Shown here piece after piece: positions 14,167 through 23,424 of a stretch of DNA of 25,951 nucleotides. Source of the stretch: Elusimicrobiota bacterium. GTDB taxonomy: Bacteria > CG03 > SLGR01 > PWQF01. Where the stretch lies: assembly GCA_003557485.1 (NCBI GenBank), contig PWOI01000105.1, positions 1 through 25,951 of the forward strand, read 5' to 3'. Under the pieces are notes generated by a model that was not told where the DNA came from, did not search any database, and saw nothing but the letters and a program-made list of their open reading frames with translations. Numbering within the stretch: the first letter of the stretch is position 1; the number at the start of each line of letters is the position of its first letter. The position numbers and the translations under genes were made by a program.

Positions 14167-17100
14167 TTATGCGTTTGCTGTCTTTTTCGACTGCTTGGCG
14201 TAAACTCCTGTTCCCACGGGAATAAGTTTACCTATAATCACATTCTCCTTGAGGCCTTTTAATTTGTCTACCTGACCGGCAACCGCAGCCTCGGTAAGTA
14301 TACGTGTTGTTTCCTGGAATGAAGCAGCCGATATGAAACTTTCACCTGAAAGAGAGGCCTTGGCTATCCCGAGAAGCCTGGGTTTATATGTTGCCGGCCT
14401 CTTTCCCTCCTGTTCCATTCTGCGGTTTATGCTATCAACAATTTTTTTCTTTACTATTTCTTTTTCCAGGAAAGTTGTATCACCGCTTGAATTTATCTGT
14501 ACGAAAGAAAGCATCTGTTTAATAATTATTTCTATGTTCTTATCGTTTATTTTGACCCCCTGCAGCCTGTATACACCCTGAATCTCATTAACAAGGTATT
14601 CCTGAACTTCCTTATCCCCCTTAACCCTGAGCATACTATGCGGATTAATGGGTCCATCTGTGAGTGGTTCCCCGGAATAAACCTTATCGCCCTCATATAC
14701 AACAAGGTGTTTTCCGGGAGGAATTATATAGGTTTTTGATTCCGCCTTATCGCTTTCAACGGTAACCTTAAAAGCACCTTTTTCAATGGAGCCAAGACGC
14801 ACTGTACCATCTATTTCAGTTATCACGGCATTATTCTTTGGTTTCCTGGCCTCAAAAAGTTCAGTAACTCTGGGCAGTCCGCCGGTAATATCTTTTGTTT
14901 TTATAACTTCGTGAGGTATTTTAGCAAGCACATCTCCCGCACTAACACTATCTCCACTGTCGACAACCAGGTGAGTATCTACCGGAAGAGGATAGGATTT
15001 TTTATTTCCGCCTGAATCCGTTACCTCTATCTGGGGATGTAGTTTGGGGTTACGATAAGGAATTATAACTTTCTCGGTTTTACCCGTAGCCTTATTTATC
15101 TCTTTACGCGCAGTTATTCCGTCCCTGATATCCCTGAGCCTTACCTTTCCTGCCATTTCGGTTATTATTGGCATAGTGAAAGAGTCCCATTCCGCCAGCA
15201 TATCACCACGATTTACCGGAAAAGAATCCTTTCCTGATTTTTTATGTATTCTGGCGCCATACCTCACATCAAATTCATCAACCTTTTTACCTTCACTGCG
15301 GATTATAATTTTTCCTTTCCTGGAAATGTTTATCATTTCCTTTCGTTTATTAGTAATCGTGCTTATTCCTTTAAATTCGGCAATCCCTTCATGGCGTGAA
15401 ACAACCGCACTGCGCTGGGAAACTCTTGAAGCCGTACCCCCAATATGAAAGGTACGAAGAGTAAGCTGAGTTCCGGGCTCACCTATTGACTGTGCTGCAA
15501 TTATGCCTACCGCAAGCCCGGTAAGAGCAAGCTTACCGGTAGAAAGATCAAGCCCGTAGCATTTACAGCATATTCCTTCTTCCGTTTCGCAGGTAAGCGG
15601 CGAACGTATTCTTATGAAAGGTATTCCGGTTTTTTCTATTTTTTCAGCGGCCGCCTTGGTTATTACCTCTCCCTCTTTGGCAAAAACCTCGTCGGTTACG
15701 GGATCAACAATATTATCAAGGCTAACCCTTCCCCATATTCTTTCAGAAAATTTTTCTATTATTTCGGTACCTTCTTTAAGGTGGCCGACCCTTATTCCGT
15801 TTAATGTGCCGCAATCTTCTTCTTTGGTAACTATATTGTGTGCAACATCAACCAGGCGCCTGGTAAGATATCCCGCATCTGCTGTCTTAAGCGCGGTATC
15901 CGCAAGTCCTTTTCTCCCGCCGTGAGTTGATATGAAGTATTCCAAAGAAGTTAACCCTTCCCTGAAATTGGATTTTATCGGATTTTCAATAATTTCGCCT
16001 GTTCCTCCGGTTATCTTTTTCTGAGGACGGCTCATAAGCCCCCTCATGCCTCCGAGCTGGCGAATCTGATCTATCGAACCACGTGCCCCGGAAGTGGCCA
16101 TAAGGCGTATAGGATTAAACTTAGGGCCCTTTCCGTCGTATGGGATCTTGTCTTCTTTCTGTATTTCCGATATCATCTCGTCTGTAATTTTATCAGAGAC
16201 CTGGCTCCATATATCAATTATGCTGTTATATCTCTCAATATTGGTTATGTAGCCCTTACTGTAATTTGACTCTACTTTTTTAACCTTCTGCTGTGCCTTT
16301 TCAATGATTTCCTGTTTTTTGGTAGGAACATGCATATCATCTATTGAAATTGAAAGATCGCTCTTTGTAGCGTAGTGAAATCCTATCTTTTTTACCCTGT
16401 CAAGCATTACGGCTGTTTCGTATTTACCTACCTTCCAAAAACATTCCTCCACAAGAATAGACATTTCCTTTTTGGTCATTTCCCGATTCTTGTAACCAAG
16501 ACCTTCAGGAAGATAGCTATTAAAAAGCACCCGCCCTGCAGTTGTATAATCTTTCCATATGGCGGGGTTTTTCAGCTCTTTTTCTCCCCATTTTTCTTCT
16601 TCCTTTATCCTATTTATTCCATTAACTTTTATTCTCGCGTTCAAGTCAATATTTCCCATATTAAGAGCACTTTGCACTTCATCTCGGGAAGAAAAGATTT
16701 TACCCTCTCCAAAAACACCCTGCTTTTCCCGGGTAAGATAATTACACCCCATCACTATATCCTGCGTAGGAGTAACTATCGATGAACCGTTAGCGGGAGA
16801 AATAATATTGCTCGTTGAAAGAACCATTACTTTTGCTTCCATGCAAGCTGCAGGAGATATAGGTATATGAACCGCCATTTGGTCTCCATCAAAGTCAGCG
16901 TTAAAAGCAGTGCAGACAAGAGGATGGAGCTGAATAGCCTTACCTTCTATCAATACAGGCTCAAAGGCCTGTATCCCCATCCTGTGAAGTGTAGGGGCAC
17001 GATTCAAGAAAACAGGATGTTCGTTTATTATATTCTCAAGTATATCAAAAACCACAGGATCTTTTTCCTCTATAAAAGGCCGGGCAGTACGAAGATTTGT

Positions 17101-18273
17101 AGCAAGGCCCTTCTTTATGAGATCTCTCAGTATGAAGGGTTTATAAAGTTCCAGAGCCATTTCTTTGGGCAAACCGCACTGGTTTAATTGTAAATGAGGG
17201 CCAACAACAACAACTGCACGGCCTGAATAATCAACTCTTTTACCGAGAAGATTTCTGCGAAACCGGCCCTGCTTGCCTTTAATAGTGTCTGAAAGAGATT
17301 TCAGCGGACGTCCGCCGGTACCCGTCACAGTCCGGCCCCTTACGCCATTCTGGATAAGAGCATCGACCGCCTCCTGAAGCATTCGCTTCTCATTGTGCAG
17401 CATAACCGTGGGCGCCCCCATCCTTGATATCTGCATAAGGCGGTTGTTCCGGTTTATAACCCGCCTGTAAAGATCATTTAAATCCGAAGATGCAAACTTT
17501 CCCCCTTTTAGAGGAACAAGCGGCCTTAAATCGGGAGGAATAACCGGGATGCAGGAGAGTATCATATTTTCCGGGCTGTTACCGGAATTTAAAAAATCTT
17601 CAACAACCTTAAGGCGGCGCCTCCAGTTCCTGCGCTTCCCTTTTCCGCCTTTTTCAGATTCCAGATTTTTGCGTATCCCGCGCGCAATCTTTTTAAGATC
17701 TATTTCGCTTAAAAGCTTTTTCAGGGCTTCCCCTCCAGTCATTGCCTCAAACTCGTCTTCGTATTCATTCTGAAGCCTCTGGTAGTCTTCAATTGATATA
17801 AGCTGTCCTACCTGGAGTTTTTTACCTCCCAGTTTAATATCACCCTCGACACTAATTACAACATAGGCAGCATAATAAGCAATTCTTTCAACATCGGACC
17901 TTCTCATATCAAGAAGCATCCCTATTCTCGAAGGAGGTTTTCTTATATACCATATATGAGCAACAGGAGTTGCAAGTTCAATATGTCCCATACGCTCGCG
18001 CCGGACTTCCTTTTTAGTAACTTCAACACCGCATCTCTCACAAGTTACCCCTTCATGACGTGGATACTTGTAGCGACCGCAGTTGCATTCATAGTCCTTC
18101 ATCGGGCCGAATATCCTTTCACAGAAAAGTCCGTCCCTTTCTGCGCGAAATGTGCGGTAGTTTATGGTTTCGGCCTTTTTAACTTCTCCGTAAGACCACC
18201 CGCGCACATCCTCTGGAGAAGCAAGCATAAGTTTTATCGAATTAAAATTTTTATAATTAAGTTCTTCAGGCAT
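14167..18273 (-). CDS. rpoC: DNA-directed RNA polymerase subunit beta'
   Basis: Beta' forms one pincer of RNA polymerase and holds the catalytic magnesium. The 1368-residue product is complete. The N-terminal zinc site has Cys63, 65, 78 and 81. The active-site motif NADFDGDQ starts at residue 458, with Asp460, Asp462 and Asp464. The second zinc site ends with Cys895, Cys902 and Cys905. The bridge-helix/trigger-loop region holds [38 protein letters not shown]. It is not split or fused. It begins six bases after rpoB, so beta and beta' would be co-translated. Confidence 0.99.
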
Positions 18274-18279
18274 GATTTA

Positions 18280-21048
18280 TTAATCCTTAAGATTCTCTAA
18301 AATCGCTTTCAAGCCCAGGGACTGCAACTCCTTAACAAGCACCCTGAAAGATTCTGGCACTGTCGGTTCTTTTATTTCATCGTTTTTAATTATAGCTTCA
18401 TGCATTTCCGTCCTGGCTTTTACATCGTCACTTTTGTAAGTAAGAAGTTCCTGAAGCGTATAAGCAGCCCCGTAACCTTCCATGGCCCATACTTCCATTT
18501 CACCAAATCTCTGCCCGCCGAACATGGCTTTTCCGCCAAGTGGCTGACGGGTTATTAGAGAATAAGGTCCGGTCGAACGGGCATGAGCCTTATCTTCAGC
18601 CATATGTTCAAGTTTCATCAGATACATAATGCCCACAGTTATATTATCACCAAGTACCTCACCCGTCCGTCCGTCATAAAGCCTTGCGCGTCCGGATTCT
18701 GAAAGTCCATTTTCCCTAAGCATCTTTTTTATTTCTTTTTCAGTAGCTCCGTCGAATACTGGAGTGATAACCCTGATCCCGGCTTTTTCGGCAGCAAGGC
18801 CAAGGTGTGCCTCAAGAATCTGACCTACGTTCATTCTTGAAGGAACTCCTAAAGGATTTAAAAGAAAATCAACCGGGCGGCCGTCTTCGGTATACGGCAT
18901 ATCCTCTTCAGGAAGAATCCTTGATATAACGCCTTTATTCCCATGTCTTCCCGCAACCTTGTCACCTGCCATTAGTTTTCTGCGGGATGCAACATGTATT
19001 TTGACTTTTTTCGACACCATTACAGGAAGCTCGTCGCCCTTTTCAAGGTCGTCTATCTCGGCCTGACGCAATTTATTGAGCCGTTCCTCCTCAACACTCC
19101 GAAGTATTTTATTTTTTTCTCTATAAAGTTCGTATTCTTTTTTTGTTATTTCACCCTTTTTCGCTTTATTGCTCATTCTAAGGGTACGGGAGCTGCTGTC
19201 TTTTCTAAATTCTTCAATAAGACTGTCGTACCTGTCATTAATTTCCCCGGAAAACTTATCTTTCCTGTTTTTTGTAAGACTGTCTTTCCGGTCAAAAACT
19301 TCTACGCGTATAACTTTTCCTTCTATTCCTGGAGGAACCTTCAGTGAAGTGTCCTTTACATCTTCGGCTTTTTTACCGAAAATGGTTTTCAGAAGCCTGA
19401 CTTCGGGAGTATAGCGGGTTTTCCCTTTAGGTGTAACTTTACCTACGAGGATGTCACCCGGCCTTACATAAGCCCCAACCCTGACAATTCCGTTTTCATC
19501 AAGATCTCTTAGGCGTTTCTCTCCGACATTGGGTATATCCCTGGTTATTTCCTCTCTGCCTATTTTCAGGTCCCGGGCCTCAACCTCCTCTTTAAATATA
19601 TGGATACTTGTAAAAATATCCTCTTTAACAAGACGTTCGGAAACCAGAACCGCATCTTCAAAATTATATCCTTCCCAGGGCATAAAAGCTACAACAAGGT
19701 TGCGGCCAAGCGCAAGCTCGCCTTTTGCGGTTGCAGGCCCATCAGCCAAAATGTCGTCTTTTTTAACTTTCTCACCTTCAGATACTATAGGCAGCTGGTT
19801 ATAACTTGTGTCCTGATTGCTTCTTATGAATTTTTTAAGTTCATAAACATCTATATGGTCCTGTTCGGTTTTTTTATTGCTTTTTCCGGCAGCCTTTATG
19901 ATTATTTTCTCTGAATCAACATATATTACTTCGCCTGCCCTGTCAGCTTTTACAACAACACCGCTATTCCTGGCAACAACCTGCTCCATACCGGTAGAGA
20001 CAAGTGGAGGCTCGGTTATTGAAAGAGGGAGAGCCTGCCGCTGCATATTAGAACCCATAAGAGCGCGGTTAGCATCATTATGCTCCAAAAAAGGAACCAA
20101 ACCAGCCGCAGCCCCGACCATCTGCTGGGGGGAAATATCGATATAATTAACTTCAGTTTTTTTCACGAGGGGAAAATTGCCCCTCTGCCTTGCAGTTATA
20201 AGCCCGTCGGGAAGCTCCCCTTTTTTATCTGCTACAGTCGCGGGAACCAGTACGTTTTCATCTTCAATATCAGCGGTAAGATATTCTATTTTATTTGTAA
20301 TCTTTCCGTTTTCAACTTTTCTAAAAGGTGTTTCTATGAGACCGTATTCATTTATTCTTGAATAAATTGCAAGTGTTGACCGCAACCCGATATTCTGTCC
20401 TTCAGGCGTTTCAATCGGGCATATTCTTCCGTAATGTGTATGGTGAACATCCCTTACTTCAAAGCCAGCCCTTCTGCGGTCAAGACCGCCCGGGCCCAAC
20501 GCTGAAGTTCTTCTCTTATGGGTAAGTTCCGTAAGAGGGTTTGTCTGAGACAAAAACTGGGAAAGCTGACCCGTACCGAAAAATTTATTTATAGCAGCAG
20601 ACACAGGAACCGGATTTATAAGGGATGTCGGGGTCGCGTCTTCCGGAGACTGAAGATTCATTTTGCTTCTTACAAGTCTCGCCAAATTAGCAACTCCCCT
20701 CCTGAGATGGTTTTCAAGCTGTTCTCCAACTGTACGCACCCTGCGATTACCGAGATGATCTATGTCGTCTACTTCTCCTCCTATTCCGTTATTAAGCATT
20801 ATTATATATTTTACGGAGCATATTATATCAGAGGGAGAAAGATTTCGTTTTTGAAGAGACGGCAGGGGCATTTTTGAATCAGCGTATATTTGTTCAAGCT
20901 TTTTATTTATTTTATAGCGGCCGACTTTTGTCAGGTCATATTTTGCAGTTCCCTTAAAAAAAAGCGTATCAAAATATTCTATAGCTGCCTCGGGAGTTAT
21001 ATGCTGCTGCGACCTAAGAATCTTAAAAATTTCATATATGGCATCCAT
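18280..21048 (-). CDS. rpoB: RNA polymerase subunit beta, C-terminal fragment of interrupted rpoB
   Basis: This is the 922-residue part of beta after an in-frame stop. It holds the rest of the lobe, the fork and rifampicin region, the active-site wall and the clamp connector. Recognisable blocks are VDDIDHLGNRRVR, FFGTGQLSQF, THKRRTSALGPGG, the NRALMGSNMQRQALPL block, GRHGNKGVISRI and the C-terminal GGQRFGEMEVWAMEGYGAAYTLQELLT. The first ATG after the stop is at 21048, with no recognisable Shine-Dalgarno sequence. No ATG, GTG or TTG lies in frame between that ATG and the stop. Homology to RpoB runs in the same frame across the stop, so this is one gene with the fragment at 21112-21987. Whether the fragment is made separately is unknown. 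Confidence 0.9.
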   Translation of the reverse strand: MDAIYEIFKILRSQQHITPEAAIEYFDTLFFKGTAKYDLTKVGRYKINKKLEQIYADSKMPLPSLQKRNLSPSDIICSVKYIIMLNNGIGGEVDDIDHLGNRRVRTVGEQLENHLRRGVANLARLVRSKMNLQSPEDATPTSLINPVPVSAAINKFFGTGQLSQFLSQTNPLTELTHKRRTSALGPGGLDRRRAGFEVRDVHHTHYGRICPIETPEGQNIGLRSTLAIYSRINEYGLIETPFRKVENGKITNKIEYLTADIEDENVLVPATVADKKGELPDGLITARQRGNFPLVKKTEVNYIDISPQQMVGAAAGLVPFLEHNDANRALMGSNMQRQALPLSITEPPLVSTGMEQVVARNSGVVVKADRAGEVIYVDSEKIIIKAAGKSNKKTEQDHIDVYELKKFIRSNQDTSYNQLPIVSEGEKVKKDDILADGPATAKGELALGRNLVVAFMPWEGYNFEDAVLVSERLVKEDIFTSIHIFKEEVEARDLKIGREEITRDIPNVGEKRLRDLDENGIVRVGAYVRPGDILVGKVTPKGKTRYTPEVRLLKTIFGKKAEDVKDTSLKVPPGIEGKVIRVEVFDRKDSLTKNRKDKFSGEINDRYDSLIEEFRKDSSSRTLRMSNKAKKGEITKKEYELYREKNKILRSVEEERLNKLRQAEIDDLEKGDELPVMVSKKVKIHVASRRKLMAGDKVAGRHGNKGVISRILPEEDMPYTEDGRPVDFLLNPLGVPSRMNVGQILEAHLGLAAEKAGIRVITPVFDGATEKEIKKMLRENGLSESGRARLYDGRTGEVLGDNITVGIMYLMKLEHMAEDKAHARSTGPYSLITRQPLGGKAMFGGQRFGEMEVWAMEGYGAAYTLQELLTYKSDDVKARTEMHEAIIKNDEIKEPTVPESFRVLVKELQSLGLKAILENLKD

Positions 21049-21114
21049 TTTTGACGAGGTATTGTCTTTAGTGAGAGTAAGATGTATAGTCTGGTCGTTT
21101 ACAGGGCGCCCTTA
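21049..21114 (-). other. In-frame TAA and untranslated linker inside rpoB
   Basis: This stretch joins the two rpoB fragments in the same frame. It holds TAA (codon 292) and 21 sense codons translating to GRPVNDQTIHLTLTKDNTSS and a Lys, before the ATG at 21048. The linker fits the expected beta sequence after the DLDH block, so no frame shift is involved. A single base change (for example to CAA, GAA, AAA, TCA, TTA or TAC) would restore the gene. Part of a 10-bp palindrome overlaps the stop. Confidence 0.9.
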
Positions 21115-21987
21115 GGCAAAATGATCAAGATCCGCCAATTCAACTTTTCTTATTCCGTCTTTTCTCCACTTTTCAAGCAGTTCTTCTGTTACAACCTGAT
21201 TCGGACGACCACTGAACTCTGTTGTATCTTTCGCGGAATCGGGTATTGAAACAAGAATTTTACCTACAATTGTATCGCTTTTTTTTCCTTTAATATCAAT
21301 AAGCTTTGTAGGATAAAAAAGCCTGAGTATATCCTCGTCTTTTTCCCATCCCATGGCACGAAAAAGAACAGTTACGGGGAATTTTCTTTTTCTATTTATC
21401 CTTGCATAAAGTTCGTTACGATTATTATATTCTAACTCTATCCATGAACCCCTGTAAGGTATTATACGGCCGGCATAAAGATTTTTCCCAAGATTTGAAA
21501 CACCTTTTTTCTCATCTTCTTCATAGTTAATACCGGGAGATCTGTGGAGCTGATTTACTATAACCCTTTCTACTCCATTGATAATAAATGTCCCGGTGGA
21601 AGTCATATTGGGCAGGTCAAAAAGATATAATTCCTCTTCTCTTATATCCGGTTTTTTGCGCCCTTCCAGTTTAACCTCAAGGGAAAACCTCACCCTGATC
21701 GGAAGAGCATGGACAACATCTTTTTTTACTGCGTCTTCAATACTGTACAAAGGCAGGTCAACCTTGTAATCAATGTAGTTTAATTTCATATTCCTGTCTA
21801 TGCGCTCAATAGGAAATATATCTTCAAAGACTGCATGCAGCCCGAATTGCTCCTTTTCCCCTTCAGCAGACCACTGAAGAAATTTTTCAAAGGATCTTTG
21901 CTGAACCCGTATTAAATCGGGTGAGGGAAGGGATACCTTCGTTGAAGAAAAATCCTTAACTTTGTCAGGTATATGAGGATATAACAT
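21112..21987 (-). CDS. rpoB: RNA polymerase subunit beta, N-terminal fragment of interrupted rpoB
   Basis: This is the 291-residue start of beta, ending at TAA (21112-21114). It begins five bases after rplL. It contains the protrusion and most of the lobe: the N-terminal SLPSPDLIRVQQRSFEKFLQ block, FPIERIDRNMKLNYIDY, the VRFSLEVKLEGRK region, and FIINGVERVIVNQLHRSPGI. It stops after KVELADLDHFA, which aligns with the NDLDHGPYI region of E. coli beta, well short of a natural C-terminus. On its own it lacks catalytic parts. Read through, the full gene would be 1236 codons including the terminator, a reasonable length for a beta subunit lacking large insertions. Confidence 0.9.
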   Translation of the reverse strand: MLYPHIPDKVKDFSSTKVSLPSPDLIRVQQRSFEKFLQWSAEGEKEQFGLHAVFEDIFPIERIDRNMKLNYIDYKVDLPLYSIEDAVKKDVVHALPIRVRFSLEVKLEGRKKPDIREEELYLFDLPNMTSTGTFIINGVERVIVNQLHRSPGINYEEDEKKGVSNLGKNLYAGRIIPYRGSWIELEYNNRNELYARINRKRKFPVTVLFRAMGWEKDEDILRLFYPTKLIDIKGKKSDTIVGKILVSIPDSAKDTTEFSGRPNQVVTEELLEKWRKDGIRKVELADLDHFA

Positions 21988-21992
21988 TACTT

Positions 21993-22379
21993 TTATTTAA
22001 GTTCTACTGTAGCTCCAAGTTCTTCAAGCGCCGCTTTCGTTTTTTCCGCAGTTTCCTTATCTACACCTTCCTGAACAGGTTTCGGAGCACCGTCAACAAG
22101 TGTTTTTGCTTCCTTAAGGCCAAGTCCAGTTATTTCTCTCACAGATTTAATAACCTGAATCTTTTTATCTCCGGCTGCCTGGAGAACTACATCAAATTCA
22201 GATTTTTCTTCTTCTGATGCACCGCCTGCTGCTGCGCCGGCAGCTGCCACCGCTACAGGAGCCTGTGCCGAAACACCGAATTTTTCTTCCATAGCGGAAA
22301 CAAGATCCGACAACTCTATGACTGTAAGCTGCTCTACCTCTTCCAAAATCGTATCTACTTTACTCTTTTTCTTAGCCAT
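21993..22379 (-). CDS. rplL: 50S ribosomal protein L7/L12
   Basis: L7/L12 forms the flexible stalk that recruits translation GTPases. The 128-residue product has the N-terminal dimerisation helices ([25 protein letters not shown], about residues 12-36) and an Ala/Gly-rich hinge at about 37-60. The C-terminal domain holds [20 protein letters not shown] and [12 protein letters not shown]. It overlaps the rplJ stop by eight bases. The rplL-rpoB spacer is only five bases, with no room for the attenuator seen there in E. coli. Confidence 0.98.
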
Positions 22380-23424
22380 TACTGCTATCCTCCTTTTTTT
22401 CAGTATCCGTCACCGGGGCTTCTTCATCCCCGCTGGCCGGTTTTTCTGATTGATCTTTATCTTCCTCTTTAATATCCGTTGCAGAAGCCTCTGCTGCCGA
22501 TTTTCCGACAGCTTCTTCCTTTGAGTCCTGGCTTTCTGACTCAGAAGCGGATTGCTGCTTTTCCTGCGCAGCCGGTTCCTTAACTTCTTCTTCCTTTGCT
22601 TCCGGCTCTGCGACAGCTTCTTCCTTTGAGTCCTTACTTTCTGACTCAGAAGCGGATTGCTGCTTTTCCTGCGCAGCCGGTTCCTTAACTTCTTCTTTCT
22701 TTGCTTCCGGCTCTGCGACAGCGTCTTCCTTTGAGTCCTTACTTTCTGACTCAGAAGCAGATTGCTGCTTTTCCTGCGCAGCCGGTTCTTTAACTTCTTC
22801 TTTCTTTGCTTCCGGCTCTGCGGCGGGTTCTTGCCCTGAATTCTGATCCGAAACTGCGGTAACAGGTTCCTGTTTTTCTTCTGCGGCCTGTTCTGGATGC
22901 TCTGGTTTTTTCTCCTGTAAATCTTTTAATGCATAAATCAGTTTTTTAATTACTCCACTGAGAACGCTATGCAGATTCTGTATAGGGGCATTAAACACAT
23001 TAACTACCTGGGCGATAAGCACTGTCCTGTCCGGGAGATCAGCAAGTTTTTTCAATTTATTCTCATCAAGAAAATTTTCACCGACTATGGCTGCTTTAAA
23101 AGACAATATTTCATTTTCTGAGAAATAATTCTTAAAAACCTTAAGCCCAGCAGAGGGATCTTCCGAACCAAGTATAACCGCTACCGGTCCTTTAAGGCTG
23201 CCGAACAATTCTTCGTATTTTTCTTTTCCGGCATTCTCCAAAGAGCGCCTGGCAAGGCGGTTTTTTACAACCTTCAGGGTGCACCCTACACTTTTGAGTT
23301 CTTTTCTAAGAACATTGGCTGCATTAGCGTTTATGCCCTGATAACTTGCTACTATTACGCTTCCGGAAGATTGAATCTCTTCCTCAAAGTTTTTTACAAA
23401 TTGTTTTTTTTCTTCAATTTTCAT
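22372..23424 (-). CDS. rplJ: 50S ribosomal protein L10 with long repeat-bearing acidic tail
   Basis: L10 anchors L7/L12 dimers at the stalk base. Residues 1-172 are a normal L10: N-terminal rRNA-binding domain ([26 protein letters not shown]), then the L12-binding helix at about 146-172. Most bacterial L10 proteins end near there, at about 165-180 residues. Here another 178 residues follow, rich in Glu, Lys, Ala, Ser and Gln, with three tandem 35-residue repeats at 202-236, 237-271 and 272-306. The tail has no hydrophobic core and is probably disordered. The frame is intact through the repeats and ends by overlapping rplL, so the tail is in the same reading frame as a needed gene. The start has only a weak ribosome binding site, downstream of a structured leader. 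Confidence 0.96.
22507..22821 (-). repeat. Three tandem 105-bp repeats inside rplJ
   Basis: The period is exactly 105 bases (35 codons): the same GACAGC-type junction recurs at 22507, 22612 and 22717 on the plus strand. Unit residues run [12 protein letters not shown], then [15 protein letters not shown], then a DSKE-x-AV end. The three copies differ by only a few residues (Lys/Glu, Lys/Gln, Asp/Glu), and the DNA is nearly identical, so the duplication is recent or is kept alike by recombination. Confidence 0.96.

Follow-up and report, generated by a model that had tools for sequence, protein, structure and literature searches.

The in-frame TAA found in rpoB of this Elusimicrobia draft genome is most likely not a real biological feature but an artefact of the draft sequence: the consensus of this fragmented, metagenome-assembled genome very probably has a wrong base here, or a minority one. 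Its cause appears to lie in sequencing, in assembly or in a mixture of strains, and not in the DNA of living cells, which would carry a sense codon at this position, probably GAA (Glu). The earlier sequence-only reading had set out a sequencing or assembly error, a nonsense mutation, readthrough and a natural split of the gene without choosing between them; error is now favoured both by the codon that relatives have at this site and by the recurrence of similar stops in other genes of the same draft, while a split of long standing is refuted.

The rpoB gene and its internal stop

The window, meaning the whole stretch of 25,951 nucleotides that was analyzed, is contig C108 of a fragmented metagenome-assembled Elusimicrobia genome (2.07 Mb in 212 contigs, estimated to be 86.6% complete). 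It contains the following features around the stop.

18280..21987, minus strand: rpoB read through its internal stop, 1,235 codons (translation and Pfam Rpb2 domains)
21112..21114, minus strand: in-frame TAA at rpoB codon 292, where the congener and three of four order-level relatives have GAA
21049..21111, minus strand: 21 codons from the TAA to the next ATG (21048); compared with the congener, 9 silent changes and no amino-acid difference
18280..21048, minus strand: 922-codon open frame that starts at this ATG and ends with the terminal stop of rpoB; probably no gene of its own
14167..18273, minus strand: open frame of 1,368 codons immediately downstream of rpoB, named rpoC for its position and length

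Rpb2 domains 1, 2, 3, 45, 6, and 7 are all found by Pfam in the one read-through frame, which by this domain content is the β subunit of bacterial RNA polymerase. Translation of the assembled sequence puts the stop (21114-21112, minus strand) at codon 292 of 1,235, within the lobe region (Rpb2 domain 2). The sequence-only reading had described a UAA at this codon in a frame that encodes RpoB before and after it without a shift, and this description is accurate: the TAA is present in the assembly at these coordinates, Rpb2 domains lie on both sides of it, and the ATG at 21048 follows after exactly 21 codons. The search for a second copy of rpoB that it had proposed found none in the genome (2.07 Mb, 86.6% complete). 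Elsewhere in the window, the gene located where rplJ (L10) would be (22372-23424, minus strand) is long, at 350 amino acids, and contains three nearly identical 105-base tandem repeats (22506-22822), which code for a C-terminal extension with many charged residues.

Codon 292 and its surroundings in related genomes

A sense codon is aligned to rpoB codon 292 in all five of the nearest relatives, a comparison that had been suggested as a check and whose outcome favors an error. The codon is GAA in the same-genus genome G001 and in the same-order genomes G002, G003, and G005, and CCA in the same-order genome G007. Over the first 290 residues the RpoB of G001 is 92% identical to that of the draft; the G001 frame is open for 524 codons, up to the end of its contig. 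A change from GAA to TAA at codon 292 takes a single G>T substitution. At the invariant columns of rpoB the draft has one deviation, as do other genomes.

The 21 codons behind the stop are also informative, as their comparison with G001 gives a dN of 0 at a dS of 1.14, while the parts of rpoB before and after this stretch give dN values of 0.04 and 0.03 and dS values of 1.0 and 1.3, respectively. Termination at the TAA with a restart at the next ATG would free these 21 codons to drift, and since none of them has changed its amino acid, the stretch must still be maintained as protein, or have been so until a short time ago.

Similar stops elsewhere in the same draft

A survey of 722 kb of the same genome for same-frame neighbors that are parted by just one stop codon and that both show coding signal gave about eight single in-frame stops, rpoB included, in this sampled third of the assembly. 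They comprise all three stop codons and are spread over several contigs, with gyrB on C121, GAPDH on C85, the HU-type gene on C107, the LpxD-type gene on C94, and the GalE-type gene on C170. In addition to rpoB, the interrupted genes are as follows.

gyrB (L070:4938): TAA; G001 codon GAA
GAPDH (L151:5243): TGA; G001 codon GGA
HU-type protein (L120:5720): TAA; G001 codon GAG
LpxD-type acyltransferase (L069:6221): TGA; alignment at the site ambiguous
GalE-type epimerase (L106:5237): TGA; G001 codon AGG
Histidine kinase (L109:4321): TAG; close to the contig end
Kelch protein (L119:4531): TGA; from the survey of 722 kb

In gyrB, GAPDH, the epimerase, and HU, a Pfam domain extends over the stop. 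For gyrB, GAPDH, and the HU-type, LpxD-type, and GalE-type genes, the draft's own copy contains one stop each, and all relatives whose alignment covers the position have a sense codon there. Constraint downstream of the interrupting stops is about equal to that upstream. The AGG of the G001 epimerase cannot have given TGA in one step, which leaves the epimerase outside the changes with a clear ancestral codon. The LpxD-type search also returned a TAG in G001, right where the alignment begins, and two TAA codons in G004 that were absent on realignment. A further same-frame pair (L106:12734) was dropped as two neighboring genes, and L149:6894, which has no Pfam match, and L075:6573 were left out of the count.

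The same survey was applied as a control to 665 kb of the relative G002. Stop-separated pairs occur there as well, but in none of the ten tested does a Pfam domain extend across the stop, and these pairs look like neighboring genes. Reciprocal tblastn searches over about 90 kb each way recovered the rpoB and HU stops in the draft and no convincing in-frame stop in G002, although other drafts are not perfectly clean and show weak paralogue matches with a single stop. The break in rpoB is therefore like single-base breaks elsewhere in its own assembly that are absent from a comparable genome, G002.

The occurrence of similar stops in other essential genes points to a quality problem of the whole genome and to nothing that is special to rpoB, whose TAA would be one of the about eight single-base stops in the sampled third of the assembly. 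Truncated forms of RpoB, GyrB, and GAPDH together should not permit life, and hence the best explanation is a consensus that contains wrong bases or minority ones. A precedent comes from the deposited genome of Mycobacterium smegmatis, where, like here, genes were broken by a single site, and where a significant proportion of the interrupted coding sequences was reported to be sequencing errors using bioinformatics, proteomics, and resequencing (PMC1852416). While proteomics and resequencing supported that conclusion, the present one comes from a fragmented metagenome assembly by sequence comparison alone.

Frequency and type of the presumed errors

Under uniform error, about 4% of all base errors would yield a stop codon (computed). 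The eight stops, in long open frames that total about 570 kb, would then, as a rough estimate, correspond to roughly 200 base errors, or about one per 3 kb. No accompanying surplus of missense changes was detected, with 51 derived in the draft versus 40 derived in the congener, but this comparison has little power, as only about two extra changes are expected in the sample and the lists include some duplicate and shadow frames. Also against an error, there were no frameshifts in the 89 kb compared.

Each of the four changes for which the ancestral codon is clear (rpoB, gyrB, HU, and GAPDH) is a G>T when read on the coding strand, an outcome that has a probability of about 0.005 under uniform error. 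A result this improbable needs either a biased error process or chance. Artefacts of the G>T type are described as arising from oxidized guanine in sequencing libraries (PMC12390751), and oxidized guanine in the library could lie behind the changes seen here, although four cases chosen in hindsight weigh little. The type of change is the same in both, but the artefacts in that description are defined by the asymmetry between read strands, whereas the four cases here are known from the consensus alone.

Alternative explanations

The alternative that survives best, although it is unlikely, is a real and recent nonsense mutation that the assembler happened to pick, carried by some members of the population or coming from dying cells or relic DNA. 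A single base change from GAA would be sufficient, the rest of rpoB is still under constraint, and the G>T bias of the four resolved cases would also fit damage in vivo. What this explanation requires, however, is that several independent lethal mutations, in rpoB, gyrB, GAPDH, and others, came together in one consensus.

It is highly improbable that general leakiness or a suppressor allows readthrough of the rpoB stop and so yields full-length RpoB, even though the coding constraint that persists past the stops, in rpoB as in the other genes with a break, is what readthrough would predict. All of the 40 tRNA genes found carry ordinary anticodons, with no stop-reading one among them, in a genome that at 86.6% completeness may have a missed tRNA; two full-length class I release-factor genes without internal stops are present, together with a third short relative; and the RNA behind the rpoB stop is not more structured than its shuffles. 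Moreover, TAA, TGA, and TAG are all affected and each of the stops is absent from relatives aligned over its site, while TAA terminates many open frames in the window, as the sequence-only reading had correctly pointed out.

Recoding of a stop codon is, for its part, very unlikely, as the incomplete genome has neither a stop-reading tRNA among its 40 ordinary anticodons nor a loss of either class I release factor. In bacterial codes with a reassigned stop, such as that of UGA in Mycoplasma and Gracilibacteria, stop codons also occur within conserved genes, but there one codon is changed throughout the genome, whereas here three stops are involved, each singly, and TAA still ends ordinary genes. 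Slimmer still than the chance of readthrough at rpoB is that of an Elusimicrobia lineage that truly bears scattered stops in its essential genes and reads through them by some mechanism that works on every one of the three stop codons.

A natural split of rpoB into proteins of 291 and 922 residues, which the position of the TAA in the lobe region might allow given that E. coli β tolerates splitting there, is scarcely credible, because the 21 codons between the two parts are fully conserved as protein relative to the congener at saturated silent change, and because the congener and the order-level relatives are unsplit at this site. This conservation rules out a long-standing split with a restart at the next ATG, an option that had earlier been listed as physically possible; constraint between the parts is not relaxed, relatives have no split in common, and a search of the literature on split β subunits found nothing directly useful. 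The lack of a Shine-Dalgarno sequence before the ATG at 21048, which had been raised against a split, is confirmed but means little, because of the 30 start sites checked in the window with a simple motif search, 15, including rpoB's own ATG, likewise have no recognizable motif.

Implications

If accepted unchecked, the rpoB stop could enter catalogues as a split rpoB, as a case of recoding or as a pseudogene. When an essential gene in a draft metagenome-derived genome shows an isolated in-frame stop, caution is hence advised, and the rest of the draft should first be checked for similar breaks.
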